Source: a virus. From it: DNA of 50,803 bases. The position numbers and the translations under genes were made by a program. The notes beneath the pieces were generated by a model. That model did not search any database, was not told the DNA's origin, and saw nothing but the letters and a program-made list of their open reading frames with translations. The stretch lies in the IMG/VR virus record IMGVR_UViG_3300025127_000062, positions 1 to 50,803 of that record, one strand, 5' to 3'. Positions 25 through 49,849 of the stretch are shown piece by piece. Every line of letters starts with the position of its first letter. Positions within the stretch are counted from its first letter, which is position 1.

Positions 25-127
25 ATTAAACGTGATGTAAAACTACTAGCCCTGAAGTAATGGTTATATTTGTAAAAACACCGTAAAGAACAGTCCCAGC
101 CGCAAGACCAGAAGTTTGTAATTTAGC
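1..127. repeat. Exact 127-bp copy of 41251-41377 at the window start
   Basis: Bases 1-127 are identical to 41251-41377. The first mismatch is at 128 (g versus a). Similarity continues at 295 of 301 bases to the start codon of the 91-residue gene and then falls sharply. The exact match starts at base 1 and has length 127, the usual largest SPAdes k-mer. This suggests the closing k-mer of a circular assembly graph rather than a biological repeat. Confidence 0.9.
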
Positions 128-301
128 GATATTTTCAACATTCAACCCGCTAAGTGCTGTAATAGTAGTGTCTTTTAGTATTTGAATAGCTCCAAAACGT
201 CCTTGTGCAGTCCCACCATTTACGGTAGTATCCAGGACTGTTGAACTTTTTGATTCAAAAGAAACTGCGTTATAAGAAGGATTAGGTAATCTAGTGCTCA
301 T
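26..301 (-). CDS. 91-residue small putative virion protein, copy 1
   Basis: This is a short protein of unknown function, rich in Thr, Ser, Gly and Val. Its alternating hydrophobic pattern in the C-terminal half (for example TVLYGVFTNITITSGLVVL) suggests beta strands. It lies directly downstream of the largest internal virion gene in the late operon, so a minor structural, decoration or tail role is plausible but unproven. It differs from the copy at 41276-41551 at three residues (SG versus DA, and I versus V). The start ATG at 301 follows an A/T-rich leader without a Shine-Dalgarno sequence. Gene reality is well supported by conservation of the frame in both copies. Confidence 0.8.
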   Translation of the reverse strand: MSTRLPNPSYNAVSFESKSSTVLDTTVNGGTAQGRFGAIQILKDTTITALSGLNVENIAKLQTSGLAAGTVLYGVFTNITITSGLVVLHHV

Positions 302-339
302 TGTAAAATTGTATAGGAATTAATGGTAAGTGTGTCAAG

Positions 340-5328: not shown

Positions 5329-5329
5329 A

Positions 5330-8128
5330 TTAATCTAGGTATAGCCCAGCACTAAGGTTCCACACAGCATTTTGATTACCAGTGGCAGAGCTGAGAATGT
5401 CACCTAATGGCTGGTTAAAAGGAACCATGTCTGTAGCTCTACGAACTACCTCATCTAACAGACGATTAACATCTCTGACTGCAACGTATGTGCCTGCCCC
5501 TTCCTCGTAATTACCAGAAGAGTTTGCAAACTGCAGGTAGTAATACTCTCGTTCAACTACAGTGCCATCAGGTAGTTGTTCTGTTCTAAAAGTAGTTTCA
5601 GGAATATTAACAATTGGAATACCATCTCCTTTAGGTCCAAACAGACCTACACCAGCTTCAGAAAATTCGTTATTATTAAGTCCTTCAAAAAGTGCTCGTT
5701 GTTGCTTGTCTGTAATATCCTCAAGGTTTTCTGGAGGTTGTGGTCGTTCACCTTCTCCAGCACCAGGAGCTTGACCACCAAATTTTGAAAAACCAGGAGT
5801 TCGAAGGTCTGTACCAAGAGTGTAAGCCCTATCACTATAAGTAAGGTCAACATACAAATTCGGGTTTTGTCTCATAGCTAGCGCAATAACCGCAGCTTTA
5901 GTAAACTCAGCTAAGTCTCTTTCGTTTATTTTACCATCGCTTTCATTTTTAAAAGCGTAATAAAGTAGACCAAAAGGACCTGTTGACCGTGATTCATCAA
6001 CATCTAAAAATCTTTGAACTGTAGAAGGAGCAAGCCGAACATTATGACCTTGTGTACTTATAGCAGCTACACCGAACACAGGCGTTATAACCTCATCATG
6101 ATACTTTTCAGCAAGCTCAAACGCTTCTTCTGGAGATTTGCCTTGATTAAGACTCTGAGCTATATGTCCACGAAGTTGTTGTCTCCAGAACTCGCCCTCA
6201 GCATTATCTCTAGTGCCTTCTAGATTCTTAATCCTTGACAAATAAGTTAACCGACCTTTTTTGCGTTTGTGCTGAATATGAGAAGCGTTTCCTTCAGGTA
6301 CTACCTGAATTTCTCTATTTTCAATAATTTGATCTAGCTTCTTGTTGTCTTCATTAGCAACAGCAAGCTGCGCTCTTGAAGTCATTGCTTCTAAAATCTC
6401 AGGAACATTACCGCCACTAGCTGCAACCCGAAGAGCCATAGACTCAAGCAACCTTGTTTCAGATTTATCATTAAGTTGAGATATTGCAACTAAGGCTGCT
6501 CCTGGATTATCTTGGTTAGCTACAACCGTTGAAAGAACATCTTGAGTTGATTGTTCAGGGTTGTTTTCAAGGTCAACCTCTTTATCGCCAAGAACCGCCC
6601 ACTCTGTAGGAAGTCTTAGTTGTCCATTAAGAGTTCCCCTGCCTGTTATACCAGTAGGGGCTAAACCAGTGCTAATTCCTGTACCTGTGAGTTGAGGCAA
6701 TACAATGTCCTTGTAGAACATACGAACATTGTCCCAATCTCCTTTTTCAATAAGTCTTTCTAAACGAGGATACAGATTTCCAAGAGAAGTCAGATCGCCG
6801 TTGTTAACGCCGTCCATAACAAATTTTGTTCTCTTATCAATGTAAGCTTGCATCCTAGTTTGGATGTTATCTGGAAGATTCTCATACTGAGTTTTTAAGT
6901 CAATGCGAGCCTCTCTTGCGAGTTTTTGTTCTGCAGTTTCGCCCTCAACAGGTTTTTCATTTGCATCTATCAACGTAAAAAAGTCTTCTAAATTGCCAGT
7001 GTTTTTTACACCAAAACGTAAAAAACGAATAGCCAAATCATCAACAAAAGACTCTCCTACTACTGCACCAGTTTTGTCACGAGCAGGACTAAAAAGAGCT
7101 AAAGTTGCCATTAAGCCATCTATCTTTTCTTTGTTTTGTGCTGCATATTCTGGATGCTCCTCCATAAACTTAACAACAGCTGTTGCTGAATTATTAACCA
7201 TGCTAAGCATGTCACTTGCTTTTGTTACATCAAAAAAAGATGCAATAGAGGCGTCTAGTTTATCATACGCTTCTTTTCCAGCCGTAAGTTTGTACGTAGG
7301 ATCAGACAGTGCTTTCTTTTTTGCGTTATATGCGTTTTCAATCTTTTCTACACTAGACATAGGAAGTCCTAGTTTTTCTACAGATTGAGACACAAACTGA
7401 TCTGATATTTCTTTTCTGCGCTCTAGTTCATCAAGTGTTTGCGCAGTTTTTATGCTGTGCACAGAGATAGCAGTAGTATTACTGGCTAAGTCTGTGCCAA
7501 AACTTGCTTGTTCTTCTACAGTAGTTAAAGCGTCATATCGTTTTTGGTATGCTTCATCTTCACCGCTAAGCTCAGAATATACATTGTATAACGACTCATC
7601 ATCTAACCCGTTTGGATTGTTAAGAATAGCTTTTGTAGCAACGCTTCTTTTCTCTGTTTGATACTCGGTAGTTTGTCCAAAAATAATGCGCCTGTTTTTT
7701 TGTGTATCAAACGAAGCACGCGCTGCTTTCCAGTTAGCTTGCGTTCTTGCAGCAACACGCTGAGCTGCGTCCCCTTCTAAATCTAGATCAGGACTAAAGT
7801 AGTTTAAGCCAATAGTTTCAAGTTGATTAAAGTTAGTTTCAGCTTCTGAAATTTCATCGGGATTGCCTTTTGTAATAGCAGACGTAAGTGCGTCTGATCT
7901 TGTTTTAAACTCGGCATCATAGTCCTGTCCTGCCTTGTAAGCTAACAACCCTTGGGCTTTTTCTTTTTGCTGATTATTAGCTACTTGAATGTTTAATGCT
8001 GCTCCAGCTACTTTATCAAGCCCACGAGCCACATCAGTAAGACCACTACGATAATTCGAAGTAGTGTCAAAAGCACTAAATGGTGCTTTCTGTTGTTGAG
8101 CAGTTTGTGTGTTTAGTTGAATAGCCAT
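5330..8128 (-). CDS. Internal virion protein (932 aa), T7 gp15-like by position
   Basis: This large, mostly helical, charged protein has no recognised catalytic motif. The N-terminal segment (KAPFSAFDTTSNYRSGL) is shared with the 904-residue homologue at 46493-49207 (KAEFSAFDTNSRFTSGL), so the two are alleles of the same virion gene. It lies between the giant ejection protein and a small gp14-like protein, the usual order of three internal core proteins in short-tailed phages. The start codon overlaps the previous stop as TAATG, which suggests translational coupling. The role as part of the ejected trans-envelope conduit is inferred from position and size only. Confidence 0.7.
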   Translation of the reverse strand: MAIQLNTQTAQQQKAPFSAFDTTSNYRSGLTDVARGLDKVAGAALNIQVANNQQKEKAQGLLAYKAGQDYDAEFKTRSDALTSAITKGNPDEISEAETNFNQLETIGLNYFSPDLDLEGDAAQRVAARTQANWKAARASFDTQKNRRIIFGQTTEYQTEKRSVATKAILNNPNGLDDESLYNVYSELSGEDEAYQKRYDALTTVEEQASFGTDLASNTTAISVHSIKTAQTLDELERRKEISDQFVSQSVEKLGLPMSSVEKIENAYNAKKKALSDPTYKLTAGKEAYDKLDASIASFFDVTKASDMLSMVNNSATAVVKFMEEHPEYAAQNKEKIDGLMATLALFSPARDKTGAVVGESFVDDLAIRFLRFGVKNTGNLEDFFTLIDANEKPVEGETAEQKLAREARIDLKTQYENLPDNIQTRMQAYIDKRTKFVMDGVNNGDLTSLGNLYPRLERLIEKGDWDNVRMFYKDIVLPQLTGTGISTGLAPTGITGRGTLNGQLRLPTEWAVLGDKEVDLENNPEQSTQDVLSTVVANQDNPGAALVAISQLNDKSETRLLESMALRVAASGGNVPEILEAMTSRAQLAVANEDNKKLDQIIENREIQVVPEGNASHIQHKRKKGRLTYLSRIKNLEGTRDNAEGEFWRQQLRGHIAQSLNQGKSPEEAFELAEKYHDEVITPVFGVAAISTQGHNVRLAPSTVQRFLDVDESRSTGPFGLLYYAFKNESDGKINERDLAEFTKAAVIALAMRQNPNLYVDLTYSDRAYTLGTDLRTPGFSKFGGQAPGAGEGERPQPPENLEDITDKQQRALFEGLNNNEFSEAGVGLFGPKGDGIPIVNIPETTFRTEQLPDGTVVEREYYYLQFANSSGNYEEGAGTYVAVRDVNRLLDEVVRRATDMVPFNQPLGDILSSATGNQNAVWNLSAGLYLD

Positions 8129-8736
8129 TATGTTGTGCCCGTGTGATACATGTTTGCCATGCTACCAACAGTACCAATTGCAGAACCAAGACCAGATAGT
8201 CGTGTATTTGCTGCTTGATTCCTAAATTGAGTAGCCGTGTTTGCTGCAGAAGCAAGAGTAAGGTCACGAGCAGCCATTCCGTTGCTCCAAGCCAACCCGC
8301 TTTGACGCTGTGCCTCTGTAGATTGAATATTATAGCCATATGATGTTGCTGATGTTTCAAAATCAAAAGCAGCTAATCGGTTTTCGTAATCCTTAGTTGA
8401 CTGTGTAAACGTGTCTTCAAATGTCCCAAACGACGAGTTTATAGACAAACGTTCAGTCGCTAATTCAGCTCTTAATTTTCTATTAAGAACGTCTCTGTTT
8501 CTTTGAGCTTTTTCAAGGTCTCTAAACTTATTAGACTCTGCAACGGATTTATTAAAATTAGCCTGGTTTACAGCCTGTGTTGCGTTATTAACGTCAATCT
8601 GGGCGTTGTACTTACCCATCTCCTCAGCAGCATCCGCAGCATACTCTTGCGCTCTCGCGTTGTTTTCTGCTGCGCGATAAGATATAAAACCACTAACTGC
8701 GGTGGATGCTAATGCTACTGCTAATGCTACTTCCAT
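8128..8736 (-). CDS. Small internal virion protein (202 aa), T7 gp14-like by position
   Basis: The N-terminus is a hydrophobic Ala/Val/Leu segment (about residues 3-22). It is followed by an Ala/Gln/Asn-rich helical region with many NAQ/QAN motifs and a segment resembling QSGLAWSNGMAARDLTL. The homologue at 49210-49848 shares the order and the C-terminal segment RDLTLxxAANxAxQFRNQA. A hydrophobic N-terminus and an Ala-rich helix are common in the smallest ejection protein of T7- and BPP-1-like phages. It is coupled to the downstream gene by TAATG and separated from the tail tubular B gene by 1 nt. Confidence 0.7.
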   Translation of the reverse strand: MEVALAVALASTAVSGFISYRAAENNARAQEYAADAAEEMGKYNAQIDVNNATQAVNQANFNKSVAESNKFRDLEKAQRNRDVLNRKLRAELATERLSINSSFGTFEDTFTQSTKDYENRLAAFDFETSATSYGYNIQSTEAQRQSGLAWSNGMAARDLTLASAANTATQFRNQAANTRLSGLGSAIGTVGSMANMYHTGTT

Positions 8737-8737
8737 T

Positions 8738-11700
8738 TTAGTTCAAATCAGTTTTGGTTGTTAACGACGCAATTGTCAAGGGGTAAGGCTCTTCGTGTTT
8801 AATAGTCGGCACGTTTTCTACGCCAAAAGTAGAACCAGCCACAGGACGTTCTTTGTCAAAGCCTGTAAAGCCTCCTTCGTTACCATAAACAGAAGAAACA
8901 CGAACAGATTCAAATTTATCTTTAACTCCAAGTTTGTAAGTCCATGAATTAATTAAAAATGGTTTAACAGATATAATTCTAGCTGTGTCTGCACCATAGG
9001 CAGGTTTATTACGTGCATCCCACGTTGGAAACATCATCTGTAATTCTCCTGTGTATCTTAAGCCAACAACAACTCGAGATGCGTCTGCAGACTGTAGCGT
9101 GATATTACCGTCAGTAAGAGTCTGCTCTCCCGTGTATACGCCATCTTCAATAACAGCAACCGTATCCCCTGCGCCATAACGAACACTTACATCTGTGTCT
9201 ATAGTACCCTCTTGTGGCTTAACTAATTCTACGTAGCTGTCCAGCATAGGATAACTAGACAACTGTACTGGGTCTGTCTCTGCCAAAGCTTCAGTGTGTA
9301 TAAAACCATCTCTTTTGACGACAATCCATACCTGATCTAGCTCTGTGTCTGTTCCTCTGTGCAATATAGAAATATCAAGAACTTTTGCATCGGGTCCTAA
9401 ATCCTGTTGAGACCAAGCGTAAAACTCTTCTTGTCTGTGATAAGACAAACAAAATATTTTACCAGAAACAGTTCTTGCCCAAATTCTAGGTTGTGGCGTG
9501 TGCTGATAAGCAATCTGAGCAATGGAGTCTGTTAAAAAAATAGGATATATAAGCTTAGATACGTCATTAGAGGATGAGCTGTTTAAAGTCTGATCATACT
9601 TATACTCCATAAGACGAGTACCTGATTGATCAGGATAAAAAACAGAACTTGCAACAGTTTCTGCTTGTTGCTCACATGGCTCTTCTTCTGTAAGCTCCAT
9701 GCGAATTGTTTTAGGGCTAATACCATACTGATATTGATTTGGAACAATTCTATATATTCCACCAGTAGTTCCAATTACTAAGTCCTTAGCTGCATTCATC
9801 CAACGAACTCCTGCGTTCCTGTTAGAAAGTGCATACGTAATAGCATCCGTGTCTAAAACATCACCATCCTCTTGAGTTGGTTGAAAGCTAGTTTCATCAT
9901 CTGCGCGACTAAAGTAGATAAAGTTTGGATTACTATAGGTTCCTGCAAAAATTCTGCGTTGTTCAAACTTTGCTACAGTGCGTGGATAGTTTTCTTCGTA
10001 CCATGCTCCAAGTTTAACAGCTTCAAAATTACCCGCGTTTTCAAATGCAAGAGTCCTTTGATCTCTTGGAACAGGACTTATAAGCTGAACCACTACCTGA
10101 CGTGCGCTTATAAAGCGAACAATTTTCATAAACACATTGCCCGACTCCATACGACCAAATATATGCCGATCTATGTCTTCTGTTCTAAACGTATCCTCAG
10201 TAGAATTTATAAAGGCATCATTAGCTATAGGTGTTGATGTTATTCTGCTACTTGTTGGTGGACTAATTAAATTACCCGATGCGTTAACTCCTGGATTATA
10301 CTCCTCAACTTTTGGAACATTATCATCTGCGTTGTTGTAACATGCTACTACGTCAAATTGTTTTTGAGTAGACAAATTTCCAATTGTTGTGCTTAAATTA
10401 TTTGGAGGGTCGTTAACGCCACCTTGTTCAGAAAGAGCGTTTACAAAGCCATAAGTTCTGTTGCCATTAGGCTGAATAACAGCAGTCGCCGACGCTATGG
10501 TTCCAGCTGAGTTGGGACCCAGCATAAAGTAGGTTTTATCTAAAGGACCATAAACACGGTAAACACTACCAGCAGAATACACCCCGTTGTTGTAAGTTCC
10601 TCTGTAAAATTTTACAGGGTGATCTGAAGTTCCAAGATGTTCTTTGATCTTTACCCAACGAATAAGACTGCGATCCTGACCAACAACTACTTGGTTATTA
10701 CGCCTATCATCGGCAACACGAACCCACGAATTAACAAAACCTGATCCAAATACAATAGTATCAGACCTAAGATGAATTTGGTTGTCCTCTACTCCATCCA
10801 GCTTTAAAGCATTTGTGTCGTTCGCACCTGTAGCTTCTTCGTTGTCTAATAAAAACAACTGAGCTGTATTATCTTCAATGTTTAGCACAGAAACAACAGG
10901 TTCTACATATATAATAGTGTCTGTTGGGTCTTCAAGAGGATAGTTGGTTGAGCTACCTGCATGTACTGCTTTTGCTAAAAAATTATTACTATCGACCTTA
11001 TATTCAACATACCAAGATTTAGAATACGCCCCAGGCAAAACAGCTATATCAAACGAAAAATCTCCTGCATCGCCACCTAATAAGTCGTCGTTATCAATAA
11101 CTATGGTATCACCTACAGCGTATTCGTCGTTACCGCCAGTCATACCAGTTACCGTGCAAGCACCGTTAGCATCAACTACAATAGTAAAAGTTGCACCCGA
11201 ACCTGTACCAGTCGTGCTTTTTTGAAAAACTGTATAAGTGCCTTCGTCTCTAGTCGTATCTGCAGCACTAACATTCTCAACCTCAGGACTGTCAAAATCA
11301 GTAGCTATTGGAGCAAAATCTGTTGCGCTACTTTCAAGTTTTATAAATCTTTCGTTTTGTGAAATATTAAATTTATTAGACTCTGGCTCTTTTTCTAAGA
11401 ATGGTTCAACCTCAAAAGACAAATCCTCTAAAGTCCACGAATCATCTCCCTGAACCTCTGCGTTTGCTCTAAGCTCAAAAGGGGTATTAGTTCCAAAAGT
11501 TGTTTGGTTTCTAAAGTAAACATTATGAATGCTTAATGGGCTAATACCACCATCGCTTAGCTTACCAGACTGATAAAATGTTTTTACTCCACGAGCAAGT
11601 AAGGCTGAATAAAAATCAGCTGGAACACCTGTTCGTGTATGAGTAATGTTTGTATTATCAGTTATACTTCGCAAGGTTACCACTGCTTCTGTGTTTGCAG

Positions 11701-21824: not shown

Positions 21825-22772
21825 ATGCAAGAAGAAATCAAAAACATCATCACAGAAATCAACTCAACTGAACGTTACTCAGAAGAGAACAAAGCAGCTT
21901 GGCGATCTCTGTTTCAACTAGCCAAAAACTACGCATACAGACTCAAAACCAAAAGCAAGTATTCCAAAGATCTAATCACTCGTGATGTAGATGACACTAT
22001 GGTCTCTATCCTAGTTGATCAATGGATGGCTGAGTACAACAACCACTACCAGTCACACTCTAACCCACAAGATGATCGCCAAGCAGGCGACATCAGTTGT
22101 GTTCAAGCAATGGAACAAACAGCCAAAGAAGATGCAATCGCAGCTATCAAAGAGTTGTTCTCAACCAACCCCAAACCATCATTCAAAGCAGCTGTTCGCA
22201 AACGTCTCAGTGATCAAATAGCTGGCTCATCACCACGCCTAGCTGAGTTTCTCAAGCACGCATCTGACCAATGGCTAGCCGACAATGCCAGTGAGATTGT
22301 AAACAAGGCTATCAAGTATACAAACTGCGACATCACAGCTTACGTATCTTACGGTCAATCAGCTAACGAACGCAACAACCTACAGTTCTCAGAGTATGAC
22401 TCACTAGATTCAGCTGACCAATCAGCTATTACTCAGGAGTATGCAGAGTCGTTCTATCAAGATCCAGAGTGCGATCCAGATGATGCTCGCTACCTCGGCA
22501 CACCACCACGCAGTGACGAATGGGAAGACAAGATGCGTTCCAATCAGGTTGATCGCAAACGTGGCTCAGGTGGTGTTCTCAATGGACTCTATCAAAACAC
22601 ACTACCTGAACCTAGCTACTACACCAAAGAGTCACGCAATCGTTTACGCATGACATACCTAGATTCAGACAACGTATGTGATATTATGGTTGGTGCTTAT
22701 ATGAAGCGTATGAATCCCATACGTCGCAACAACCTCATCAGAAATCGCATACAAGAAAACATCAACGCATAA
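21825..22772 (+). CDS. Unknown early protein (315 aa)
   Basis: This is a soluble, Asn/Ser/Asp/Gln-rich protein with a helical N-terminal half (EEIKNIITEINSTERYSEENKAAWRSLFQLAKNYAYRL). The C-terminus is basic (YMKRMNPIRRNNLIRNRIQ). The middle carries acidic patches, DPECDPDDARYLG. No domain was recognised. A C-terminal Arg-rich helix could bind nucleic acid. Its codons favour C and A more than the replication genes do. It is likely an early host-interaction protein by position, but this is inference. Confidence 0.7.
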   Translation: MQEEIKNIITEINSTERYSEENKAAWRSLFQLAKNYAYRLKTKSKYSKDLITRDVDDTMVSILVDQWMAEYNNHYQSHSNPQDDRQAGDISCVQAMEQTAKEDAIAAIKELFSTNPKPSFKAAVRKRLSDQIAGSSPRLAEFLKHASDQWLADNASEIVNKAIKYTNCDITAYVSYGQSANERNNLQFSEYDSLDSADQSAITQEYAESFYQDPECDPDDARYLGTPPRSDEWEDKMRSNQVDRKRGSGGVLNGLYQNTLPEPSYYTKESRNRLRMTYLDSDNVCDIMVGAYMKRMNPIRRNNLIRNRIQENINA

Positions 22773-22776
22773 CTAA

Positions 22777-23094
22777 ATGGAAATTGTAATCTTCTCATTC
22801 ATCTCAGCACTAGGTCTACTCCTAGTGCTGACTCGCACAATCGGTCTAAAATATACCTTAAAATTCAGGAAGATGTTGGATGTGATTGTAACGTTTGGCG
22901 TGCCAATACTCTTCGTTGGCACGTTCAGCGGCATGATCACCGCGTTCTTTACAGGTCTTTGGTTTACCATACTTACTTGCTTGCTTAATGTATTGGTAAA
23001 CCCACCACAGGCGTTGCTGGCTCAAACAGCTTCCTATGGTAAGCAAGACAACCACACAGAAAGTCTTGAGGGTAATCGTCCCTCTCGCTCTTGA
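22777..23094 (+). CDS. Small membrane protein with several inverted repeats in its gene (105 aa)
   Basis: Three hydrophobic segments (about residues 2-18, 36-57 and 58-74) predict a polytopic inner-membrane protein. It has a polar, charged tail (TASYGKQDNHTESLEGNRPSRS). No family was recognised. The start ATG is 4 nt after the previous stop. The gene contains three perfect inverted repeats: 22806-22829 (9 bp arms), 22900-22922 (7 bp arms) and 22961-23002 (9 bp arms). This is unusual for coding DNA and suggests RNA structure. Confidence 0.6.
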   Translation: MEIVIFSFISALGLLLVLTRTIGLKYTLKFRKMLDVIVTFGVPILFVGTFSGMITAFFTGLWFTILTCLLNVLVNPPQALLAQTASYGKQDNHTESLEGNRPSRS

Positions 23095-23405: not shown

Positions 23406-23639
23406 ATGGATAATAACAACACAGTAACCATCCGCTACGGTCTTACTAACACAGTAACCCGTGGTTTTTCCAACGAAGCTACAGTCCGCGACTTGCTCGC
23501 TGACCGCAGCATTCTTGCAGCCTTGTCTGCACCAGAATCGGTATCCGCTGTTTCTAACGGCGTTACCTTGTCACCTGACGCATACGTCGGTGGCTATACA
23601 ACCATCACCTTGGAGCAGCAAGCTTCAAGCAAAGCTTAA
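23406..23639 (+). CDS. Ubiquitin-like (beta-grasp) protein, PRTRC protein C-like (77 aa)
   Basis: The predicted order is strand (TVTIRYG), strand (NTVTRGF), helix (TVRDLLADRSILAAL), strand (VSAVSNG), then GGYTTITLEQQ. This fits a beta-grasp Ubl of the ThiS/Prok_Ub type, whose last strand typically reads G-D-T-I-T-L-E. It is the first gene of a set whose other members resemble E2, E1/ThiF and JAB proteins, the same partners as in plasmid PRTRC systems. There is no C-terminal Gly-Gly (it ends QASSKA), so conjugation would need trimming or a different mechanism. It lies between hairpins on both sides, so it may be made in excess over the enzymes. Confidence 0.6.
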   Translation: MDNNNTVTIRYGLTNTVTRGFSNEATVRDLLADRSILAALSAPESVSAVSNGVTLSPDAYVGGYTTITLEQQASSKA

Positions 23640-23698
23640 CACCAGTCCCTCCTGAGCACGAGATGAAACTGCTCACCTTGTGAATCAACACCTACCAA

Positions 23699-23759
23699 GT
23701 CTCTGTGCGTGTGAGATACCGATGAGTGGTCACGAAGAACCCAGGCGTCGCACAGAGAC
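23699..23759 (+). terminator. Long hairpin after the Ubl gene
   Basis: GTCTCTGTGCG (23699-23709) is the perfect inverse of CGCACAGAGAC (23749-23759), followed by ATTTTATT. The loop is 39 nt. It could protect the 3' end of the Ubl mRNA or help terminate it. Confidence 0.5.
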
Positions 23760-23793
23760 AACATTTTATTGTTAGTTAGTGTTATATATGTGT

Positions 23794-23835
23794 GTCTGTC
23801 GTCCTAAGATCGGGGCGGCAGACTTTACTTTTTTT
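23794..23835 (+). terminator. Terminator/attenuator just before the E2-like gene
   Basis: GTCTGTCGTCC (23794-23804) pairs with GGGCGGCAGAC (23813-23823), 11 bp with two G-T pairs. It is followed by TTTACTTTTTTT. The T tract ends only a few bases before the ATG at 23841, so read-through must be controlled for the enzymes to be made. Confidence 0.75.
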
Positions 23836-23840
23836 ATCTT

Positions 23841-24707
23841 ATGAGCGAACAAACCAACCAAGAATATGTCCTACATGCAGACGGCAACTTCTACAAACGT
23901 ACAGTTTACGAAACGCTAGTTAGGAATCAAGAAGCAGCTATTGCTGCTATCAAAAGCAAACCCATGTTCCATGTGAGCGTGTTTTCACCTACGTTTACTG
24001 TGACTTCTCACGGTAATGAACTAGAGTACAAGGCATACCAGACGCTAAATATTAACCCTGCGGAACCTAGCAATGCAGAGACCTTCTTTATCAAAGCACC
24101 TAGGTTTTACTTCACTGGTGCACACCTGTATGAACTACATGCACAAAGCAGTAAGTATACTATGTATATACATGGTAGCGGAGACAGACCACTACCCGAA
24201 TCCACTGACGAACATAACTTCGTTAACAGAAGTAATCTACCTGAACCACTGCACTGGACTCCAGCAGCAGATGGGCTGCAGCTATACTTTATGTTTCCTG
24301 TAGCACGACAAGGTGACAGAACAATACTCATGTCATCTCCTTACATGTTTGTCTATGATAAAATATCACAGCAATCGTATGCTCCTAACATACCAAATGT
24401 ATTTGATCGCGGTGACATTTGCACAGGTCATGGCTTTCCTACGTCAACAATAGACTACGCAATACAGCCCGATGATCACTTATCACTAATCAAAAAAGGT
24501 ATTAATGATCTTAACTCATCTACGTGCAACGCTGATCTGCGTAGAACAGAGTATGAGTTTAAGTATCTAAACTTTGATGAAACTGGTAATACACTAAAAT
24601 GCTTAAATGACCAAGGTATTACTAAAGAAGACAAATACTTCTATCAACCTGTAACTCATGAATCCATTCTAAACTTTACATCATGGCTCAACAATACCCA
24701 GACTTAA
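23841..24707 (+). CDS. E2-like protein, PRTRC protein B / Prok-E2_D-like (288 aa)
   Basis: The C-terminal half carries SYAPNIPNVFDRGDICTGHG (about residues 178-197). This parallels the APxxNVxxxGxVCxG block of PRTRC protein B, a family grouped with prokaryotic E2-like folds. Cys194 is the candidate thioester-accepting residue. Beta-rich segments before it (LQLYFMFPVARQGDRTILMSSPYMFVY) fit the E2 sheet. The N-terminal 100 residues are less clear. The gene sits between the Ubl gene and the E1/ThiF gene, and its end overlaps the next gene by 25 nt. The assignment is by motif and neighbourhood, so an inactive scaffold role cannot be excluded. Confidence 0.6.
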   Translation: MSEQTNQEYVLHADGNFYKRTVYETLVRNQEAAIAAIKSKPMFHVSVFSPTFTVTSHGNELEYKAYQTLNINPAEPSNAETFFIKAPRFYFTGAHLYELHAQSSKYTMYIHGSGDRPLPESTDEHNFVNRSNLPEPLHWTPAADGLQLYFMFPVARQGDRTILMSSPYMFVYDKISQQSYAPNIPNVFDRGDICTGHGFPTSTIDYAIQPDDHLSLIKKGINDLNSSTCNADLRRTEYEFKYLNFDETGNTLKCLNDQGITKEDKYFYQPVTHESILNFTSWLNNTQT

Positions 24708-25015
24708 AAACTGCGTTGGACAACCAACAAGCTGTATTCAATCAAGTTCATGTAAATAGTTCCTATGGCTCTGTTAACAATTATGATCTTAATAGATACA
24801 ATGAAATGCTTGAAGCTCAACACAGAGTAGCATCGGATACTTACAAAGTTAATCATGGTTTATCTGATGCAGAGATGCGTATTTTGCATAAGATACTTGC
24901 AAAAGATCTACCAAATTGTGGTCGCAAACGCGGTGCTATCCTTCGATATATTAAAGCATATCAACCAGACAATCCAAACTATGGTATACAACTATACCGT
25001 TCACTATCATCATGA
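24683..25015 (+). CDS. Small helical protein within the Ubl cassette (110 aa)
   Basis: This is a polar protein with an amphipathic central part (LNRYNEMLEAQHRVASDTYKVNHGLSDAEMRILHKILAKDL). It also has a basic CGRKRGAILRYIKAYQPDNPNYG segment. No family was recognised. It overlaps the E2-like gene by 25 nt, and its stop overlaps the E1 start (ATGA), so it is translated with the cassette and may be an accessory or adaptor subunit. In PRTRC systems, extra small proteins (E and F) accompany the core set, but I see no direct match. Confidence 0.6.
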   Translation: MAQQYPDLKTALDNQQAVFNQVHVNSSYGSVNNYDLNRYNEMLEAQHRVASDTYKVNHGLSDAEMRILHKILAKDLPNCGRKRGAILRYIKAYQPDNPNYGIQLYRSLSS

Positions 25016-25728
25016 AACCTAAACTAAACGCAGTAATCATTGGTGCTGGCGGTGTTACAAGCTACATGCTGCCTGCACTTAAAAATACATTCGATCTCAC
25101 AGCAACTATCGTTGATGGAGATATACTCGAAAAACACAACCTTGATCGCCAACTATTCAAAAACAACGCAGTTGGTCAATACAAGTGTGCAGCTTTGCTA
25201 AAGCAATACAACTTTCGTAAAAACGAAGGTCATGCTATCCGTCAATACTTTGACGAAGACATGCTTAATACAGAATACAAGTTGTTCTTTGCTAATGCTG
25301 ACGTATACATCTGTGCAGTCGATAACCACCCAGCACGCAAAGCAGTTATTGCTGCAGCTAAACAATACAAAAAACCTGTAGTTATTTGTGCTAACGAATA
25401 CCACACAAGTCAGGCTATGTATTTTGATCCCAATCTTGCTCAAGCATATCCAATGATGGATCCAATTGCTCGTTACCCGTCAATTGGTACAGACACATCA
25501 GGCAGCCCACTTAGCTGCCAAGGTCTTGCACTTGAGTCTGAACCACAACTTGCTATCGCCAATCAGGTTGCAGCTAGCTTTGGTAACTTTCTGCTCTGGA
25601 CTTGGCATGGTATAGATGCCGACCCTGCGCTCATTGACTACATGCCTGTCGAGTACCAGAGCACCTTTTCTCGTTTACAAACAATTACTGTCGAAGACAT
25701 AATCGGCATGGAACAAAAAGTATCATGA
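25012..25728 (+). CDS. ThiF/E1-like adenylating enzyme (238 aa)
   Basis: A Rossmann start IIGAGGV (residues 9-15) gives the ATP-binding loop. VDGDILEKHNLDRQLF (34-49) carries the acidic residue and the arginine (Arg46) typical of E1 enzymes. Lys58 follows in GQYKCAALL. CAVDNHPARKAV is the later D-N-x-x-x-R block. A Cys lies in PLSCQG. The zinc-binding CxxC pairs of MoeB/ThiF are absent, as in short PRTRC ThiF proteins. It should activate the C-terminus of a Ubl by adenylation. It overlaps both neighbours by 4 nt (ATGA), a tight operon with the E2-like and JAB genes. Confidence 0.8.
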   Translation: MKPKLNAVIIGAGGVTSYMLPALKNTFDLTATIVDGDILEKHNLDRQLFKNNAVGQYKCAALLKQYNFRKNEGHAIRQYFDEDMLNTEYKLFFANADVYICAVDNHPARKAVIAAAKQYKKPVVICANEYHTSQAMYFDPNLAQAYPMMDPIARYPSIGTDTSGSPLSCQGLALESEPQLAIANQVAASFGNFLLWTWHGIDADPALIDYMPVEYQSTFSRLQTITVEDIIGMEQKVS

Positions 25729-26876
25729 TTGAAGAAACCATAGTATCAGATAACAAGTTATACAAGAAGCTAGACTTCCCGCTGTTTACTACGTATCAGG
25801 AATTAAACGCAGTAGAACAAAAAGAACTTGTTCCCGTATTCAAAGGTAAGCCTATCCCACGGCAAATGTGGAAAAGGATTCTATCTTACATGAAACAGTC
25901 TTACGATCATTTGAAATCAGAGACACTTGTGTTTCTGTTCTACGATGAGTCAAAAGACCAGCCGTGGAGCTGGTGGATTCCACCACAAGAAACATTGGGT
26001 ATGACTGTAAAATCACTACCCGACGATCCAGAGTATGCTAAACAACGTGCAAACTATCCTGACACAATGTTTGGCACTGTTCACCACCACTGCTCCGCGT
26101 CTGCATTTCAATCAGGCACAGACGAATCAGATGAAGTAAATCGCGAAGGTATACATTTTACAATAGGTAACCTAAACACAAACGCATTTGATATACACTG
26201 TCGTATTACAATTGGCAGCTGTCATTCAGATATACCTGCTGGTACGTATATTGCTCAAGCTGCTGACCCGTTTAAAAAGACTGCAAAAGTTCCAGACAAC
26301 ATACGTAAACAAGTTATAGATCATCTGCACACCTTAGACATTGTTGCTCTTAACGACAACTACCTAGAAGACACATTTTCTGACGCAAAAAATGTATCTA
26401 AAAGAGTATACACAGCTCCAGTCAACAAATACACACAACCAGGTCTTGGTTGGAACAACTATGACGAATATGCTATATCAAAAAAAAACAGCCCAACCAT
26501 TCTAGACGAAGAAACAAGCAGCGAAGACGCTGCTGAAGATCTTGTAGACACAATTTTATCAGACTATGAATATGAAAATATCCTTATCAACTATTATACT
26601 TTCCGCAACGACGTTGAAAACAATCGCAAGTTGTATACCGCAGAACTCGAAAGCACAGAAATTGTCAAAGACTTGTTACGACTCTTTGAAGACGAAGAGT
26701 TCCAAGTTACTAGAGAAGGCAAAGAAACCTTGGATACAATTAACAAGTTTATTAGACAACAGAAAAACTACGGACTTGACATCACCATCGAAGAACTCAT
26801 ACATGGACTCTCAACCTTACGATACGATGAAGACGGAGAAAGAGTTCAACCAGTGGATACGAAGAATGTTCTATGA
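25725..26876 (+). CDS. JAB/JAMM metalloprotease, PRTRC protein A-like (383 aa)
   Basis: The sequence at residues 120-133 (HHHCSASAFQSGTD) fits the JAMM motif H-x-H-x7-S-x2-D exactly: His120, His122, Ser130 and Asp133. Glu in the N-terminal segment (YDESKDQPWSWW, or PPQE) could be the remote catalytic residue. GIHFTIGNLNTNAFDIHCRITIG afterwards fits the JAB core sheet. The last about 190 residues are an acidic extension without recognised domain. JAMM enzymes cleave isopeptide bonds or trim Ubl precursors. With a Ubl lacking a terminal Gly-Gly upstream, a processing role is attractive. It overlaps E1 by 4 nt and the nuclease gene by about 74 nt. Confidence 0.8.
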   Translation: MIEETIVSDNKLYKKLDFPLFTTYQELNAVEQKELVPVFKGKPIPRQMWKRILSYMKQSYDHLKSETLVFLFYDESKDQPWSWWIPPQETLGMTVKSLPDDPEYAKQRANYPDTMFGTVHHHCSASAFQSGTDESDEVNREGIHFTIGNLNTNAFDIHCRITIGSCHSDIPAGTYIAQAADPFKKTAKVPDNIRKQVIDHLHTLDIVALNDNYLEDTFSDAKNVSKRVYTAPVNKYTQPGLGWNNYDEYAISKKNSPTILDEETSSEDAAEDLVDTILSDYEYENILINYYTFRNDVENNRKLYTAELESTEIVKDLLRLFEDEEFQVTREGKETLDTINKFIRQQKNYGLDITIEELIHGLSTLRYDEDGERVQPVDTKNVL

Positions 26877-27225
26877 ATGTCTTAATACTAAAGCTGTTAT
26901 ACAACGTATCGAAACTACTACATCTAATGGTGTCCCTGATCTTCTGGTCTGCCTACCCACTAAAATTATGCTTATTGAAAGCAAGTATGAGACTAGAAAG
27001 ATACGTCCAGAGCAAGGGGCTTTTCAAATCAAAGCAAACTCTGTTATCAAAGGATCAATCAACAGATGTATAACACTCGCAGCCTATCCAAAAACTAAAA
27101 GGTTTATAATGATGGAGTTTGATCCAAGCTGCATTACTGAGAATGGCATAGAGTGTGAACAAGAAATAACTTTTACACTAGATAAAGCTGGCTTTGCTGA
27201 CTTTATCAATTACACAACTAAATAA
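26803..27225 (+). CDS. VRR-NUC-like/RecB-fold nuclease (140 aa)
   Basis: TSNGVPDLLVCLPTKIMLIESKYE carries the G-x-P-D...E-x-K signature of the PD-(D/E)xK superfamily, and RPEQGAFQIKAN adds the downstream Gln. Such small nucleases in phages resolve branched DNA or degrade host DNA. I chose the ATG at 26803 (MDSQPYDTMKTEKEF), which overlaps the JAB gene by 74 nt. The frame is open further upstream to 26566, but that part is a shadow of the JAB gene. The ATG at 26827 is an alternative start. Confidence 0.75.
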   Translation: MDSQPYDTMKTEKEFNQWIRRMFYECLNTKAVIQRIETTTSNGVPDLLVCLPTKIMLIESKYETRKIRPEQGAFQIKANSVIKGSINRCITLAAYPKTKRFIMMEFDPSCITENGIECEQEITFTLDKAGFADFINYTTK

Positions 27226-37179: not shown

Positions 37180-37911
37180 TTACAGTAGTTTAAAAATTTG
37201 GACTTCAGTATTAGAAATATAAACAGTCCTTGCTTGCCCAGCTGCCCCATTCTGCCAATATCTTATATACAAATTAGTTGAATTAGGTATATATACAAGT
37301 CCACTAGTATCCTGGCTTGAGCCAATAATATTACTAAAAGAGTTATCTTGTTCTAATCTAAGAACTCCAGAATGAAGAGTATTGTTGTTCCAGACCACTG
37401 CAGATGTGTAAGTTGTACCAAAACTTACTTGAATTCTACCATTTGTATATCTACCTACTGATAAATCAGTTGATAAATTAATTGCGTATACTCCTTGTGC
37501 TATAGTTAAAGAAGCTCCAGAGCCAGTTATATTATTAGAGCTTGAATTACTCATTAATACATCCTCAGGAGACTCACCAGCTTGAGTATTTACCCAACTT
37601 TTTTGTTGATCATCTGTTTGTGACAGAATATCTACGTTTGTAGCAAAACCAAAAACTTTATTAACAAGTCCACTAGTTGGAATAGAACTATCTGTAGATG
37701 TTAACTGACCGCTAGAAGTCTCTAACGTAGTTGGCGTAAACGAGTTAACAGTTAAAATGTTACTTGAAGCTAACCCATCTATAGCTGTTTTAACACCCTG
37801 ACTAGTCACCATGTTATCACTACTAGCTGTTGGTATGTTGTCTGCAGAAACTACTCGTGATATAGCAGAGTCAATATCAGCAGCTGTATTGTTTAGCGTA
37901 AATGAATTCAT
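37180..37911 (-). CDS. Tail-fibre-like paralogue 3 (243 aa)
   Basis: The N-terminus (LNNTAADIDSAISRVVSADNIPT, then VTSQGVKTAIDGLAS) is shared with the next two upstream genes. A second related block is FTPTTLETSSGQLTSTDSSIPTSG. The C-terminal about 110 residues are beta-rich (GVYAINLSTDLSVGRYTNGRIQVSFG). This looks like a trimeric fibre or adhesin with a shared attachment domain and a variable tip. It is the last gene of the leftward tail-fibre operon, ending back to back with the phosphoesterase gene. Receptor binding is inference. Confidence 0.65.
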   Translation of the reverse strand: MNSFTLNNTAADIDSAISRVVSADNIPTASSDNMVTSQGVKTAIDGLASSNILTVNSFTPTTLETSSGQLTSTDSSIPTSGLVNKVFGFATNVDILSQTDDQQKSWVNTQAGESPEDVLMSNSSSNNITGSGASLTIAQGVYAINLSTDLSVGRYTNGRIQVSFGTTYTSAVVWNNNTLHSGVLRLEQDNSFSNIIGSSQDTSGLVYIPNSTNLYIRYWQNGAAGQARTVYISNTEVQIFKLL

Positions 37912-37915
37912 ATTC

Positions 37916-38371
37916 TTAAGTTAGCTTTAATTTTTTAAATCTTACGGTAATAGGCACAGCCAGATTAGTGGTGCTTGACGCTATAACGCTATAAGATTCA
38001 TCTTTAGCTATTGGAAGACATATTTGCTGAATATTTGGTCCTGAATCTGCCGCACTAAAACTAGTTGAACCAATAGTAATACTAACAGAAACTGTAGAAA
38101 ACCCTGAACCTACACCTCCTACTTGAATAAGTAAAAATCCAGCGGAAGTTGCTGTTCCAGAGTTTGTTAAACCAGTATACCCACTAGGAAAACCAAAGCC
38201 TGTTTCCATGTCAGTTATACGTGAATCTAATCCATCTACAGCTGTTTTAACACCTTGACTAGTAATCATGTTCTGGCTATTAGCCGTTGGCTCAGTATCT
38301 GCTGACGTTACTCGTGTTATTGCAGAGTCAATGTCTTGAGCTGTGTTTGTAAGTGTGTAAATATTAGACAT
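37916..38371 (-). CDS. Tail-fibre-like paralogue 2 (151 aa)
   Basis: The N-terminal 50 residues match the paralogues on either side (TLTNTAQDIDSAITRVTSADTEPTA, MITSQGVKTAVDGL). The C-terminal domain (TNSGTATSAGFLLIQVGG, ending ESYSVIASSTTNLAVPITVRF) resembles that of the 186-residue paralogue. It lacks the middle FTPTT-block, so it is a shorter version of the same design. It lies 4 nt from the gene at 37911. Confidence 0.65.
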   Translation of the reverse strand: MSNIYTLTNTAQDIDSAITRVTSADTEPTANSQNMITSQGVKTAVDGLDSRITDMETGFGFPSGYTGLTNSGTATSAGFLLIQVGGVGSGFSTVSVSITIGSTSFSAADSGPNIQQICLPIAKDESYSVIASSTTNLAVPITVRFKKLKLT

Positions 38372-38383
38372 TGTTGTTTTACG

Positions 38384-38944
38384 TTAAAAAAGTGGTCTAA
38401 ATAGTATTAGTGTATTACTACTATAGCGAACAACAACAGAATAAGATTCACCCTGTTTAATAGGAACAGTTACACTTTGAAACATGCCGTTAAAGTAAGT
38501 AGACTTAAAAGATCTACCAGCAACAGTAATAGTCATATGACCACCTTCGCTCACTCTGCCTTGAGCAGTAGCGATTAAAAACCCATCACTTGTTGCAGTG
38601 CCAGAACCTGTTTGATTATTAAGCTGATTGGTTTGAAGAGCTACAGTTACCCAACTTTTCATAGTCGAAACAGAGCTAGTTACATGATCAGCAACAGCTT
38701 TACTAGTCGGAATAGAACTATCTGTAGCTGTTAACCCATCGTTAGAAGTTTCTACTGTAGTTGGCGTAAACGAGTTAAGAGTTAAAGTACCACTTGAAGC
38801 TAATTCATCTATAGCTCCTTTAACACCCGAGCTAGTTACCATGTTATCACTATCAGCTGTTGGTGTGCTGTCTGCAGACACTACTCTTGTTATTGCAGAG
38901 TCAATAACCGCCGCACTGTTACTTAAAGTATATTCGTTTGCCAT
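38384..38944 (-). CDS. Tail-fibre-like paralogue 1 (186 aa)
   Basis: It has the shared N-terminal block (LSNSAAVIDSAITRVVSADSTPTA) and the FTPTTVETSNDGLTATDSSIPTSKAV block, which is an internal repeat of the same S-x-P-T-x-S-x-A-V theme. The C-terminal domain is SGTATSDGFLIATAQG...QGESYSVVVRYSSN. The three tandem genes with shared ends and different middles suggest duplication and shuffling of an adhesin module. Confidence 0.65.
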   Translation of the reverse strand: MANEYTLSNSAAVIDSAITRVVSADSTPTADSDNMVTSSGVKGAIDELASSGTLTLNSFTPTTVETSNDGLTATDSSIPTSKAVADHVTSSVSTMKSWVTVALQTNQLNNQTGSGTATSDGFLIATAQGRVSEGGHMTITVAGRSFKSTYFNGMFQSVTVPIKQGESYSVVVRYSSNTLILFRPLF

Positions 38945-41145: not shown

Positions 41146-41274
41146 TTATTCGGGTCTAATGTATTTTGATCCAGTGGGTGTTAAAAAGAAACCTGATCCA
41201 GAACTTCTTATGTAAAAAAAGTTACCAACAGGTCTGCGTCGTCTGCCAAAGTCTAATTTTAAAAAAAGGTGCAT
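41146..41274 (-). CDS. Small 42-residue protein between structural genes
   Basis: The frame begins MHLFLKLDFGRRRRPVGNFF and continues YIRSSGSGFFLTPTGSKYIRPE. It has aromatic and Arg residues and predicted beta turns. It lies 1 nt after the 91-residue gene stop (copy 2), and its stop is 2 nt before the fibre gene ATG, so the spacing fits an operon gene. A start fragment is seen at base 24. Function unknown. Confidence 0.55.
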   Translation of the reverse strand: MHLFLKLDFGRRRRPVGNFFYIRSSGSGFFLTPTGSKYIRPE

Positions 41275-41377
41275 ATTAAACGTGATGTAAAACTACTAGC
41301 CCTGAAGTAATGGTTATATTTGTAAAAACACCGTAAAGAACAGTCCCAGCCGCAAGACCAGAAGTTTGTAATTTAGC
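41251..41377. repeat. Second copy of the exact 127-bp repeat of bases 1-127
   Basis: It is identical to 1-127. The distance between copies, 41,250 bp, would be the unit genome length if the contig is circularly closed. Past 41377 the sequence follows a diverging version of the first 9.5 kb. Confidence 0.9.
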
Positions 41378-41551
41378 AACATTTTCAACATTCAACGCGT
41401 CAAGTGCTGTAATAGTAGTGTCTTTTAGTATTTGAATAGCTCCAAAACGTCCTTGTGCAGTCCCACCATTTACGGTAGTATCCAGCACTGTTGAACTTTT
41501 TGATTCAAAAGAAACTGCGTTATAAGAAGGATTAGGTAATCTAGTGCTCAT
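41276..41551 (-). CDS. 91-residue small putative virion protein, copy 2
   Basis: It is the same gene as 26-301, with six base differences over 301 bp and three residue changes. The upstream flank diverges right at the start codon: 30 nt beyond 41551 there is no clear alignment to the sequence past 301. This marks an abrupt change of similarity at the gene border. The function is unknown. Confidence 0.8.
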   Translation of the reverse strand: MSTRLPNPSYNAVSFESKSSTVLDTTVNGGTAQGRFGAIQILKDTTITALDALNVENVAKLQTSGLAAGTVLYGVFTNITITSGLVVLHHV

Positions 41552-41588
41552 ACGGTTATGGTATATTAATGTAAAAAATTATGTCAAG

Positions 41589-44500
41589 CTAGTCTGCTTC
41601 TGCAGCCCTTGCTGTTTCTTCGCCTACGAAATTAAAAATAGTCTCATGAGCCACGTGAGCTGCTTGTTTGATAACAGGACCCACTAGGGGTAAAAACTGC
41701 CCTGTATACGGCTCTACAGCGTCTCCAAAGTCCAAAGAGGCTATGTCCGTAGCTGTGCCCACTGCAGGTCCAAAAGCGGCATCTGTGCCAAATTGTGCAG
41801 CATTAAAGAAGGGTTCGTAGTAGGACAACAGCCCTGACTGACGAACTATACGCATCCACTCCTGTTCAGTCATGTCTAGAGGGTTCATAGGCTCTTTGAA
41901 TCTAGACAGGTCTTTCAAAACAGTAGCTAAATACGAAGCTGCTAAAGCCATTCCAAGGTATGTATACAAATGAGCATTTCTAAACGCAGCTCCTTTTTTG
42001 TCGCCATTATAACCGTATAAGAATCTGCGATAAACTACACGACCCATAGCAATCATAAAACTAGAATACTGTAGTGCAAGACGAGCCGTCTCACCACCCA
42101 TCGTCCCTGCTTGAAGACCAAGACGAGACATTGCTTGTGCCCCTACGTCTGGCTCAATAACACCTTCGCGCATATACTGGTTCATAAATGCACTTAGCTT
42201 TTTCTGTAAAGATGCGTTTTTAACAGTAGAGGGTCCAATGCGTTCAATGCCGTCAGGGGTCTTTTCTATAGATTTTGCAAGCTGAGTTATCTCTCTATTA
42301 GTAAAACCAAACTCGTTCAGTCGCTCCCTAGTCACAGGGTTCATATTCTTGCCCTTGCTTAATTCAGTAGCCAAACCACTAGTAAGCATATCAATAAACA
42401 ACTGTTGATGAGCCGCTGTCAGACGATTAAGAAAGTTAATCTCAAACATAAAATCATTTGCAGTGTTAATCTTACCACCCACACCTGAGTCGTCAGTTAC
42501 AACACGTTGAGCCATGCTTCTAGTTACTAAGTCAAAAGCAGCACCTTGAGCACGAAACCACTGAGCCATCTCCTTTTTATTGCCACCAAACTGAGTAGAG
42601 ATAGCATCTTGATACCTACTAAAATAAGCTGCCATGCCTTCAGAGCCAACTCCTAAGAACTGAAGAGTTGACCAAACTAAAGGAATGTCTGACAAAGATG
42701 AAAATCCAGCACCGCCTAACATAGCAATATTCTGCACCTGACGGACATTCTTAAAGATGCTGTTTAAGTTAGCATCAATAGGAGTGTCTAAAAGCCCTGT
42801 AACTTGATCTATAGTGCCCTTGGCTGTAAGCCTCGAAGCAACAGTAGCACGAGGATCAATAAGCCCTGTAAGGATGCCATTAGCATCGTGCCCCACATGT
42901 CTTACTAGAGCAATGCTTTCAGCACGTTGAGCAATCTGTTCAAACATAAAACGCCCCATGTTTTTGCGATTGCCAAATTCAATTAACGCGTCTATTCGAT
43001 ACTCAGGCTTAAACACTACCTTAGCTGCTTTGCGATAACCCCCGAGCATAGACGGATTTGTTTGATCTGGGTCTTTAACAAAGTCGCCTTCGACTATTTC
43101 ATTATAGAGTCCACGAAGAAAGGTGTTCTTATTAAACTTCTTATGACGACCAGCATCTTTTAACTTGGAAGTTTTAGCGTCAGGGCGTTCAGCCATCAAA
43201 CCGCCGTGTGCTTTAGCAGTTGCTCGCATGTCAATCATTTCAAGCATCCTTGCTTGAAAAGCATCAAACCCCATAGACTTCACATAAGCTCGGTCGTATG
43301 TCATACTGTATCCTAAGAATCCCTCACGATCTCGTATTGACAGACCTAAACGATTCATTTGTCCTAGCTGTGACTTGTTTGTCTTGCGGATAACGTCTAT
43401 AAGCCCTTCCCAAACTTTTACGCCTTGCCACTGTTTAGGTAACTCACCCGTAGATAATGCTGTCATAATATCTCGGTGCATAAGTATAGAAGCTTGTTTT
43501 AGCTCCCTGCCATACAAAGCAGCCAAATCTTTATTGCCAATCGTGTTGTTTACATACGAAGACATATAATGACTGGGGTCTTCTCCAAAGAAGATATTTA
43601 AAAGATCGTTCTCTACTAAATAGTCTAGTAATGGATTTTGGTCTAACTGCTTTTGAACTGTTTTATAACTTTGCAAAGAAGGACCTATAGTCACTGTTTT
43701 GCGTCGGCTACCATCCATGAAAGTCTTTAGCTGGTCTACTCTAGCCTGTCCTGACTTTTGACTGTTTATTGTGTTGGTTAAGGCTTCTACAGTAATAGCA
43801 TCGTGAATCTTACGTAAGATTTGAGCGTGCGATTCTTCTTCAAGAAATCTAGTTATGCGACTTATCTGTTTAGCACTACCACCTGTTTCGTCTAGTAGGA
43901 TATAACCAATTCGTTGAGCTGCTTCTAACGGCAAGCCTCTATCAGCCAACCCTGCTAATTTATCACGAACACTAGCAAAGTCTTTAGAACTTAAAACTAT
44001 CTTTGAAATATCTCTGCCCCGTTTACGAGAAGCTTGGAGTGTAACAACTATATCTTGAGCAAGCTCTTGAGTCATCCACGTATGACCTTTTTCTTGCATA
44101 CCCTCTACATACGTGTTTATAGCAGGAGGCATCTCTTTTGCACGGAGAGTCGAAAGCTGTAAAAGCGAAGATATTGCTGTTTCGTCTCCGCCTAATAAAT
44201 CAGCAACTGCTCTATCAAAGAAACCAATAGGATCACTCATTCTATAATCCTGATCTTTGGCGTTTGTCTCTAGTAAACTAAAAGCTCTTTGATCGTTAAC
44301 TTCTAAAGCATTTAATTGAGCATCGTCTGCATCCATAAACCTTTCTAAAGAGCTAGTAAAGTTAGCATTATCGATTGCGTCTTTAAGTTTAGCTTGTGTA
44401 GTCGAGCTGTTTCTTATCTCAGTAAGAACCCTAGAAACCTCAGAAGCTAGTTTACCTCCATCCTGTGTTTTCTTAATTACAGCATTAATTCTGGTATTAT

Positions 44501-49207: not shown

Positions 49208-49209
49208 GA

Positions 49210-49848: not shown

Positions 49849-49849
49849 T

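Follow-up and report, generated by a model that had tools for sequence, protein, structure and literature searches.

The type 6d operon of bacteria encodes a ubiquitin-like protein (Ubl), a JAB protease, an E1, an E2 and a helical protein, and for lambda-type phages only a Ubl and JAB pair was described (PMC1779556). Its E2 lacks the His of the HPN motif and has, beyond the active-site Cys, a His described as absolutely conserved, its JAB protein has an N-terminal domain with a conserved Arg and Trp, and its alpha-helical protein is diverging with conserved charged residues (PMC1779556). Other Ubl conjugation systems of bacterial hosts, namely Bil and the cyclic oligonucleotide-based antiphage signaling system (CBASS), act against phages, as cited through two papers (PMC13373217, PMC11153139). 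Bacterial Ubl conjugation is so far represented mainly by such anti-phage defense and by uncharacterized plasmid operons. Here we analyze a cassette of five genes carried by a separate virus record of 50.8 kb in IMG/VR, IMGVR_UViG_3300025127_000062 (hereafter the window, meaning all 50,803 nucleotides of this DNA). Judged from sequence, these genes probably constitute a complete phage-carried pathway for Ubl conjugation and deconjugation, with catalysis predicted for their products. In the literature searched, which gave partial coverage and did not include bioRxiv, no description of a phage-encoded set of E1, E2, Ubl and JAB was found.

Gene content and predicted enzymes

Five intact open reading frames (ORFs) at 23406-26876 encode, in this order, the Ubl, an E2-like protein, a small protein, a ThiF-type E1 and a JAB protease (Table 1). 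The small/ThiF and ThiF/JAB junctions each overlap by 4 nt, and the E2 and small-protein genes overlap by 25 nt. A preliminary description of this DNA had placed the same neighboring genes in the same order, with 4-nt overlaps among the last three, and it had also named a beta-grasp fold for the first product, Cys194 of the E2-like protein within GDICTG, the GAGG and Arg46 regions of ThiF and an exact JAMM motif. All of these are borne out below; the description made no mention of the two short RNA elements situated between the Ubl and E2 genes (Table 1). The cassette observation is confirmed and is now stronger than was first claimed, with intact genes, the Ubl fold, catalytic residues, synteny and selection all computed.

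The AlphaFold model of the 77-residue Ubl (13 sequences) has a predicted local distance difference test (pLDDT) score of 81.5 and the strand and helix order beta-beta-alpha-beta-beta. Its best Foldseek matches among solved structures are ubiquitin variants (E 1.5e-4), and VIA aligns it with BAG6, ubiquitin, ISG15 and SUMO at Z 9.4-10.2, the tail meeting ubiquitin residue 76. The C-terminus TLExQASSKA is constant in the protein while its codons vary, and all close homologues end in SSKA. In divergent relatives the tail is followed by a short extension (SKA/V, TKA/EPALVV, RKA/ELACA, KKA/TAELAHA and KKA/TVELALA, where the slash marks its start). Two others are tandem proteins: L149 is a di-Ubl that matches the un-iterated profile of the window Ubl at E 1.3e-17, and L032 has two Ubls with DKG at the junction and at the terminus. 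The tails of plasmid PRTRC protein C, gathered by a PRTRC_C search of 398 genomes that served only for tail collection, are GTKG, GDKG or GAKG, in some cases with an extension. The simplest reading would be a mature end at Lys-Ala (or Lys-Gly), with the JAB protein trimming what follows.

The active-site block of eukaryotic E2 enzymes is HPN-x4-G-x-I-C, in which the catalytic Cys has an Asn upstream. The P, N, G, I and C of the block PNVFDRGDICTG in the E2-like protein fall in the register of this eukaryotic pattern (PN-x4-G-x-I-C). Its HPN His is absent, being replaced by Ile, Leu and others, and Asn186 is kept. Poor conservation of the active-site Cys had been named beforehand as an outcome that would speak against an E2; Cys194 is invariant in all 23 divergent homologues, as are Asn186, Gly196, Asp232 and Leu233. 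Profile-profile comparison by hhalign links the protein to plasmid PRTRC_B (probability 88.9, E 2.4e-6) and also to a protein of phage Arash (82); a Cytobacillus Prok-E2_D protein scores 7.8, and unrelated proteins in the same comparison score at most 2.6. In Pfam, the Arash protein points to Prok-E2_D (E 0.024). The AlphaFold model of the E2-like protein is fair (pLDDT 83.5).

In the E1, the ATP-site residues, among them GAGG and NLDR(46)Q, are invariant in viral homologues (14-15 sequences). Cys169 aligns with a Cys in 11 of the 11 plasmid, phage and metagenome-assembled genome (MAG) ThiF proteins compared, and this column is Cys in the E1s of plasmid PRTRC, of phages DAC15, Fpv3, ME3 and Arash, of a Cytobacillus plasmid and of L032. 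When the E1 profile is compared with solved structures, the SUMO, NEDD8 and BubCD E1s (4e-6 to 3e-5) come ahead of the sulfur-carrier E1s, and Cap2 is also among the solved relatives.

These matches bear on the alternative that the cassette performs a biosynthetic step, with a ThiS- or MoaD-like sulfur carrier, a ThiF adenylase, a JAB maturation protease and a 288-residue protein that is no E2. Indeed, ThiF matches ThiS-adenylase models at 1e-12, and the divergent Ubl of L149 passes the Pfam ThiS cut-off unaided (28.1 versus 22.5 bits). However, the E1s closest by profile are those of conjugation systems rather than MoeB or ThiF, no biosynthetic gene or sulfurtransferase occurs among the matched neighbors, the window Ubl does not end in Gly-Gly, and an E2-like protein with an invariant C-x-G is present in every cassette that is neither truncated nor frameshifted. 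We therefore regard a sulfur-carrier role as highly improbable and continue with conjugation as the favored function.

The JAB protein carries H120-x-H122-x7-S130-x2-D133 together with the expected Glu66 upstream, and all five residues are invariant in the viral homologues. Its hhalign probabilities are 90.9 with PRTRC_A and 95, 76 and 17 with proteins of Arash, DAC15 and Fpv3, respectively. A C-terminal extension of about 200 residues follows. The 110-residue small protein diverges rapidly and retains its GRKRG block. In searches of Pfam, PHROGs, NCBIfam and PADLOC, the Ubl, E2-like and small proteins could not be assigned confidently to a family, and matches were restricted to ThiF and, weakly, JAB; comparison of the E2 and JAB profiles with solved structures gave nothing credible.

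Table 1. Positions of the cassette genes and of two predicted RNA elements in the window
Feature	Position	Strand	Length, basis or context
Ubl, beta-grasp modifier ending TLEQQASSKA-COOH	23406..23639	+	77 aa; AlphaFold, Foldseek, VIA
H-type RNA pseudoknot, P1 CTC/GAG, P2 TGAGCA/TGCTCA	23649..23675	+	10 nt after Ubl stop
Intrinsic-terminator-like hairpin, 12 bp, 7 G-C, T-run	23794..23823	+	between Ubl and E2
E2-like conjugating enzyme, Cys194 in PNVFDRGDICTG	23841..24707	+	288 aa; hhalign to PRTRC_B, conserved residues
Small protein, invariant GRKRGA-LRYI block	24683..25015	+	110 aa; in 39 complete cassettes
E1/ThiF-fold adenylating enzyme; GAGG, NLDRQ, VDN, Cys169	25012..25728	+	238 aa; Pfam ThiF 1.2e-15
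JAB/JAMM metalloprotease; Glu66, His120, His122, Ser130, Asp133	25725..26876	+	383 aa; PRTRC_A 5.7e-4

Conservation, selection and putative pathway

Homologue searches seeded from ThiF, Ubl and JAB recovered 74 distinct IMG/VR contigs with cassette genes, one of which (L099) is a 19-residue match that a later profile scan did not confirm. The preliminary description had proposed looking for the same gene order in other phages. This order recurs in more than 70 IMG/VR contigs and one MAG contig, and 39 contigs, including the window, carry the full set arranged as Ubl, E2, small, ThiF, JAB, one of them with split reading frames for E2 and JAB. Ubl, E2, ThiF and JAB are present in eight divergent contigs (L147, L149-L155), and in the other contigs missing parts coincide with sequence ends. 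Two further contigs are binned in genomes. The one in a Sneathiella MAG (L031) is probably a phage contig because it carries a terminase. The other, a phage-like contig in a Cloacimonadota MAG (L032), holds at 3785-7556 a tandem di-Ubl and, arranged differently from the window, JAB, E1 and E2, which shows that the kit extends beyond a single phage lineage. It is also not a core gene set of the group to which the nearest named phage by terminase belongs, since in this podovirus (MW202510, 50% identity) the corresponding stretch holds unrelated genes.

Between close relatives, the ratio of nonsynonymous to synonymous substitution rates (dN/dS) is 0.03-0.04 for ThiF, 0.05-0.16 for Ubl and 0.12-0.21 for JAB, and the E2 (0.23-0.49) and small protein (0.22-0.51) have the highest values; DNA polymerase gives 0.045 in the pair of the window and L001. 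All five genes are thus under purifying selection, which argues that the cassette is in use, and this, with five-gene synteny in 39 contigs, argues against a chance assembly. Compared with the Ubl and E1, the E2 and the small protein change at several-fold higher rates, a pattern that we read as constant tagging chemistry with changing targets. For the same reason we propose that the small protein works with the E2, possibly as an adaptor or E3-like helper.

Rapid evolution of the E2 and small protein would also fit an arms race in which the phage Ubl or E2 is a decoy or inhibitor that competes with Ubl-based immunity of the host (Bil, CBASS Cap2/Cap3) and tags nothing of its own, and the activity of those host systems against phages lends this idea some appeal. 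However, a decoy needs no intact and strongly conserved E1, E2 Cys and JAMM protease, and these are kept together in all complete cassettes. On balance we consider a decoy very unlikely and a working tagging pathway the better account.

In that pathway, the E1 would use ATP to adenylate the C-terminal Ala77 of the Ubl and then hold the Ubl as a thioester on Cys169, from which Cys194 of the E2 would take it over. Attachment of the Ubl to an amino group of a target would fall to the E2, with the fast-evolving 110-residue protein as its probable adaptor. Where relatives carry an extended or tandem Ubl, the JAB protein would trim these precursors, and it would also strip the Ubl off targets. The hairpin that resembles a terminator and belongs to the Ubl gene alone may leave more modifier than enzyme, as a modifier pathway needs.

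Several observations weigh against this proposal. With the E2 model, VIA ranks the TSG101 ubiquitin E2 variant (UEV) domain first (Z 4.9, the maximum) and many E2s at 3.7-4.3; UEV and E2 chains thus account for most of the highest-ranked matches, but with values below the level that is trustworthy alone, and Foldseek matched the model to no solved structure. The E2 fold expected in the preliminary description is supported mainly by the profile match to PRTRC_B, and the structural match to UEV and E2 chains is weak. The Ubl also lacks the Gly-Gly end, and Ala would be an unusual residue to adenylate. The window Ubl has no extension, so its processing by JAB would be unnecessary, and its profile comparison with PRTRC_C gave no signal (probability 0.7%). 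Finally, family and solved-structure profile searches found no credible family or PDB match for the 110-residue protein, and no counterpart of it is recognizable in the eight divergent cassettes.

The remaining genes of the window are a podovirus-type set. Its minus strand encodes the large terminase, a T7-type head-tail adaptor, the major head protein and a large virion protein, and its plus strand encodes DNA polymerase A, a primase, helicases and a metallophosphoesterase. The cassette forms the first genes of the plus-strand, replication-side block and is divergent from the virion operon. Because it shares strand and side with the replication genes, tagging would probably take place early or in mid infection. 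An early block in a lytic-type phage had been suggested beforehand; the location of the cassette with the replication genes fits the early placement, and the lytic character is suggested by the fact that no integrase was seen among the window genes scanned, which are a part of the total.

Perhaps the Ubl instead modifies structural proteins of the phage, or the virion carries the enzymes and injects them, an arrangement loosely like the Ubl and JAB pair of lambda tail assembly. The distant E1 and E2 of Arash (gp246c and gp248c) are labelled structural proteins in GenBank, and mass spectrometry of the Arash virion lists Gp246-Gp248 (PMC10585845). Furthermore, the pair in lambda-type phages lies inside the tail cluster (PMC1779556). 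However, the window cassette is grouped with the replication genes in both strand and side and diverges from the virion operon, and carry-over or misnumbering is possible in Arash because 116 proteins were detected and the gene numbers partly disagree with the GenBank labels. A virion system therefore seems unlikely to us. The preliminary description had suggested modification of host proteins, counter-defense or use on virion proteins as possible roles. Among the targets of the proposed tagging pathway, we tentatively place host proteins first as the most likely class, and proteins of defense systems or of rival phages come next as a rather doubtful second; the phage's own virion proteins are less likely still. 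It is tempting to speculate that tailed phages of several unrelated groups combine a Lys-Ala-ended modifier with a fast-evolving pair of E2 and adaptor as a re-targetable covalent weapon against proteins of the host or of rival phages, an idea that we offer with some reserve.

If such a complete and widely conserved phage pathway exists, covalent protein tagging would also be in the hands of bacterial viruses. These loci would provide compact natural systems for the study of E1-E2-Ubl evolution, in which the slow Ubl and E1 and the fast E2 and adaptor make target recognition testable. The tail sequences also have a practical consequence. Trypsin should cut after Lys76 and leave only an Ala remnant (+71 Da) on a modified lysine, and PRTRC-type systems should leave a Gly remnant, whose +57 Da equals the mass of the common carbamidomethylation. 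Standard searches for Gly-Gly remnants would be expected to miss both.

RNA elements and surrounding genes

The pseudoknot that follows the Ubl stop codon is present at the same place in most cassette loci. This 27-nt element also occurs in L012, L031, L042, L156-L235 and others, with the consensus P1 NNC/GNN, P2 TGAGCA/TGCTCA and an A-rich loop AAAC, and its pattern matches at least 120 stretches in IMG/VR. In 203 distinct instances, P1 pairs in 99.7% of cells at the right register, against 25-40% at other registers and 70% with shuffled partners, and its pairs are of nine main types. P2 and part of the loop are set by the search pattern, which leaves only P1 as an independent test, and in many instances part of P1 is set by it as well. 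The element almost never lies within long ORFs, and 65 of 146 instances are located no more than 20 nt after a stop codon. It has no Rfam match and looks like an undescribed viral element of 3′ untranslated regions, which is probably general to viruses rather than specific to the cassette. A role in stop-codon readthrough was considered and rejected, given that the readthrough peptides differ between loci. Hairpins similar to the G+C-rich one downstream are found at the same place in 6 of 13 other loci examined (L001, L002, L003, L005, L007 and L018).

Upstream of the Ubl gene are genes for a 315-residue protein (21825-22772, plus strand) and a probable membrane protein of 105 residues (22777-23094, plus strand), both syntenic with the cassette in every contig that reaches that far. 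Downstream, the ORF of a VRR-NUC nuclease (26566-27225, plus strand) overlaps JAB in another frame by as much as 311 nt when it is read from its first ATG, or by 11 nt from a later ATG at 26866. No Shine-Dalgarno sequence is recognizable at the cassette starts 23406, 23841, 24683, 25012 and 25725. ATC directly precedes the ATG at three of these starts and ATCTT occurs at a fourth, contexts that may be a clue to the host or reflect a different initiation signal.

Two further features of the window are outside the cassette. Its end (41251-50803) repeats its start (1-9688): positions 41251-41551 are 98% identical to 1-301, and beyond 41551 there are diverged homologues (34%, 27%, 39% and 76% amino acid identity) of the same virion operon. 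Two readings offer themselves: an assembly chimera, in which the contig continues round a genome of about 41 kb into the copy of a related strain, or the presence of two virion operons. At 37180-38944 on the minus strand, three consecutive paralogous small proteins (151-243 residues) with DNA repeats of up to 86% identity look like a shuffling fiber-type or variable-region cassette.

Relation to known systems

Some named phages of very distant and unrelated groups, DAC15, Fpv3, ME3 and Arash, also have a ThiF with a JAB neighbor, and Arash has in addition the E2 that matches the E2-like protein of the window. In Fpv3 and ME3 the ThiF is labelled as thiamine biosynthesis, in DAC15 as hypothetical and in Arash as structural, labels that are probably misleading because the genes cluster with those of JAB proteins. 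In ME3, a stretch with a tRNA and other ORFs lies between the N-terminal part of the JAB, annotated as PRTRC system protein A, and a possible piece further downstream. In lambda-type phages, tail proteins I and K are likewise a phage-borne Ubl and JAB, but they lie in the tail cluster and lack an E1 or E2.

The preliminary description had stated that the gene set matches the plasmid PRTRC systems (TIGR03735-TIGR03738). Distant homology of the E1, E2 and JAB proteins stands, but membership does not, as scores are far below the NCBIfam cut-offs: ThiF reaches 41.2 bits with TIGR03736 (cut-off 144.75) and JAB 19.5 bits with TIGR03735 (cut-off 101.8). NCBIfam gave no match of the Ubl and E2 to TIGR03738 and TIGR03737, and when the cassette and three flanking genes were compared with its models, PRTRC B, C, E, F and ParB had no hits. 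Both systems encode JAB, an E2_D-like protein, Ubl and ThiF together, share the E2 motif N-V-x3-G-x-[IV]-C-x-G, have similar Ubl tails (K-G in PRTRC, K-A in the phage) and have the E1 Cys in the same alignment column. In contrast, the phage E2 lacks a His after the active-site Cys, the phage JAB is longer by 200 residues, and the phage order Ubl-E2-small-E1-JAB differs from C-F-B-A-ThiF.

PRTRC plasmid systems look like type 6d, and the phage cassette too has separate Ubl, JAB, E1 and E2 genes with one diverging extra protein, and an E2 devoid of the HPN His. The N-terminal Trp of type 6d JAB proteins may be compared with an invariant Trp49 in the phage family, and the Arg with an Arg46 that only part of this family has. 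Unlike in type 6d, the His after the E2 Cys is Cys, Trp, Phe, Ala, Ile or Ser in phage E2s. Cys229 was entertained as a second catalytic Cys in place of this His and rejected, since divergent homologues have A, I, S, W or F there. By these comparisons, the phage cassette is a relative, and not a member, of the PRTRC and type 6d systems.

The Bil, Bub and CBASS (Cap2/Cap3) systems follow the same logic of E1, E2 and JAB. Their E1 and E2 are often fused, whereas those of the phage are separate proteins. Moreover, Bil and CBASS protect the bacterium, whereas the present set belongs to a phage.

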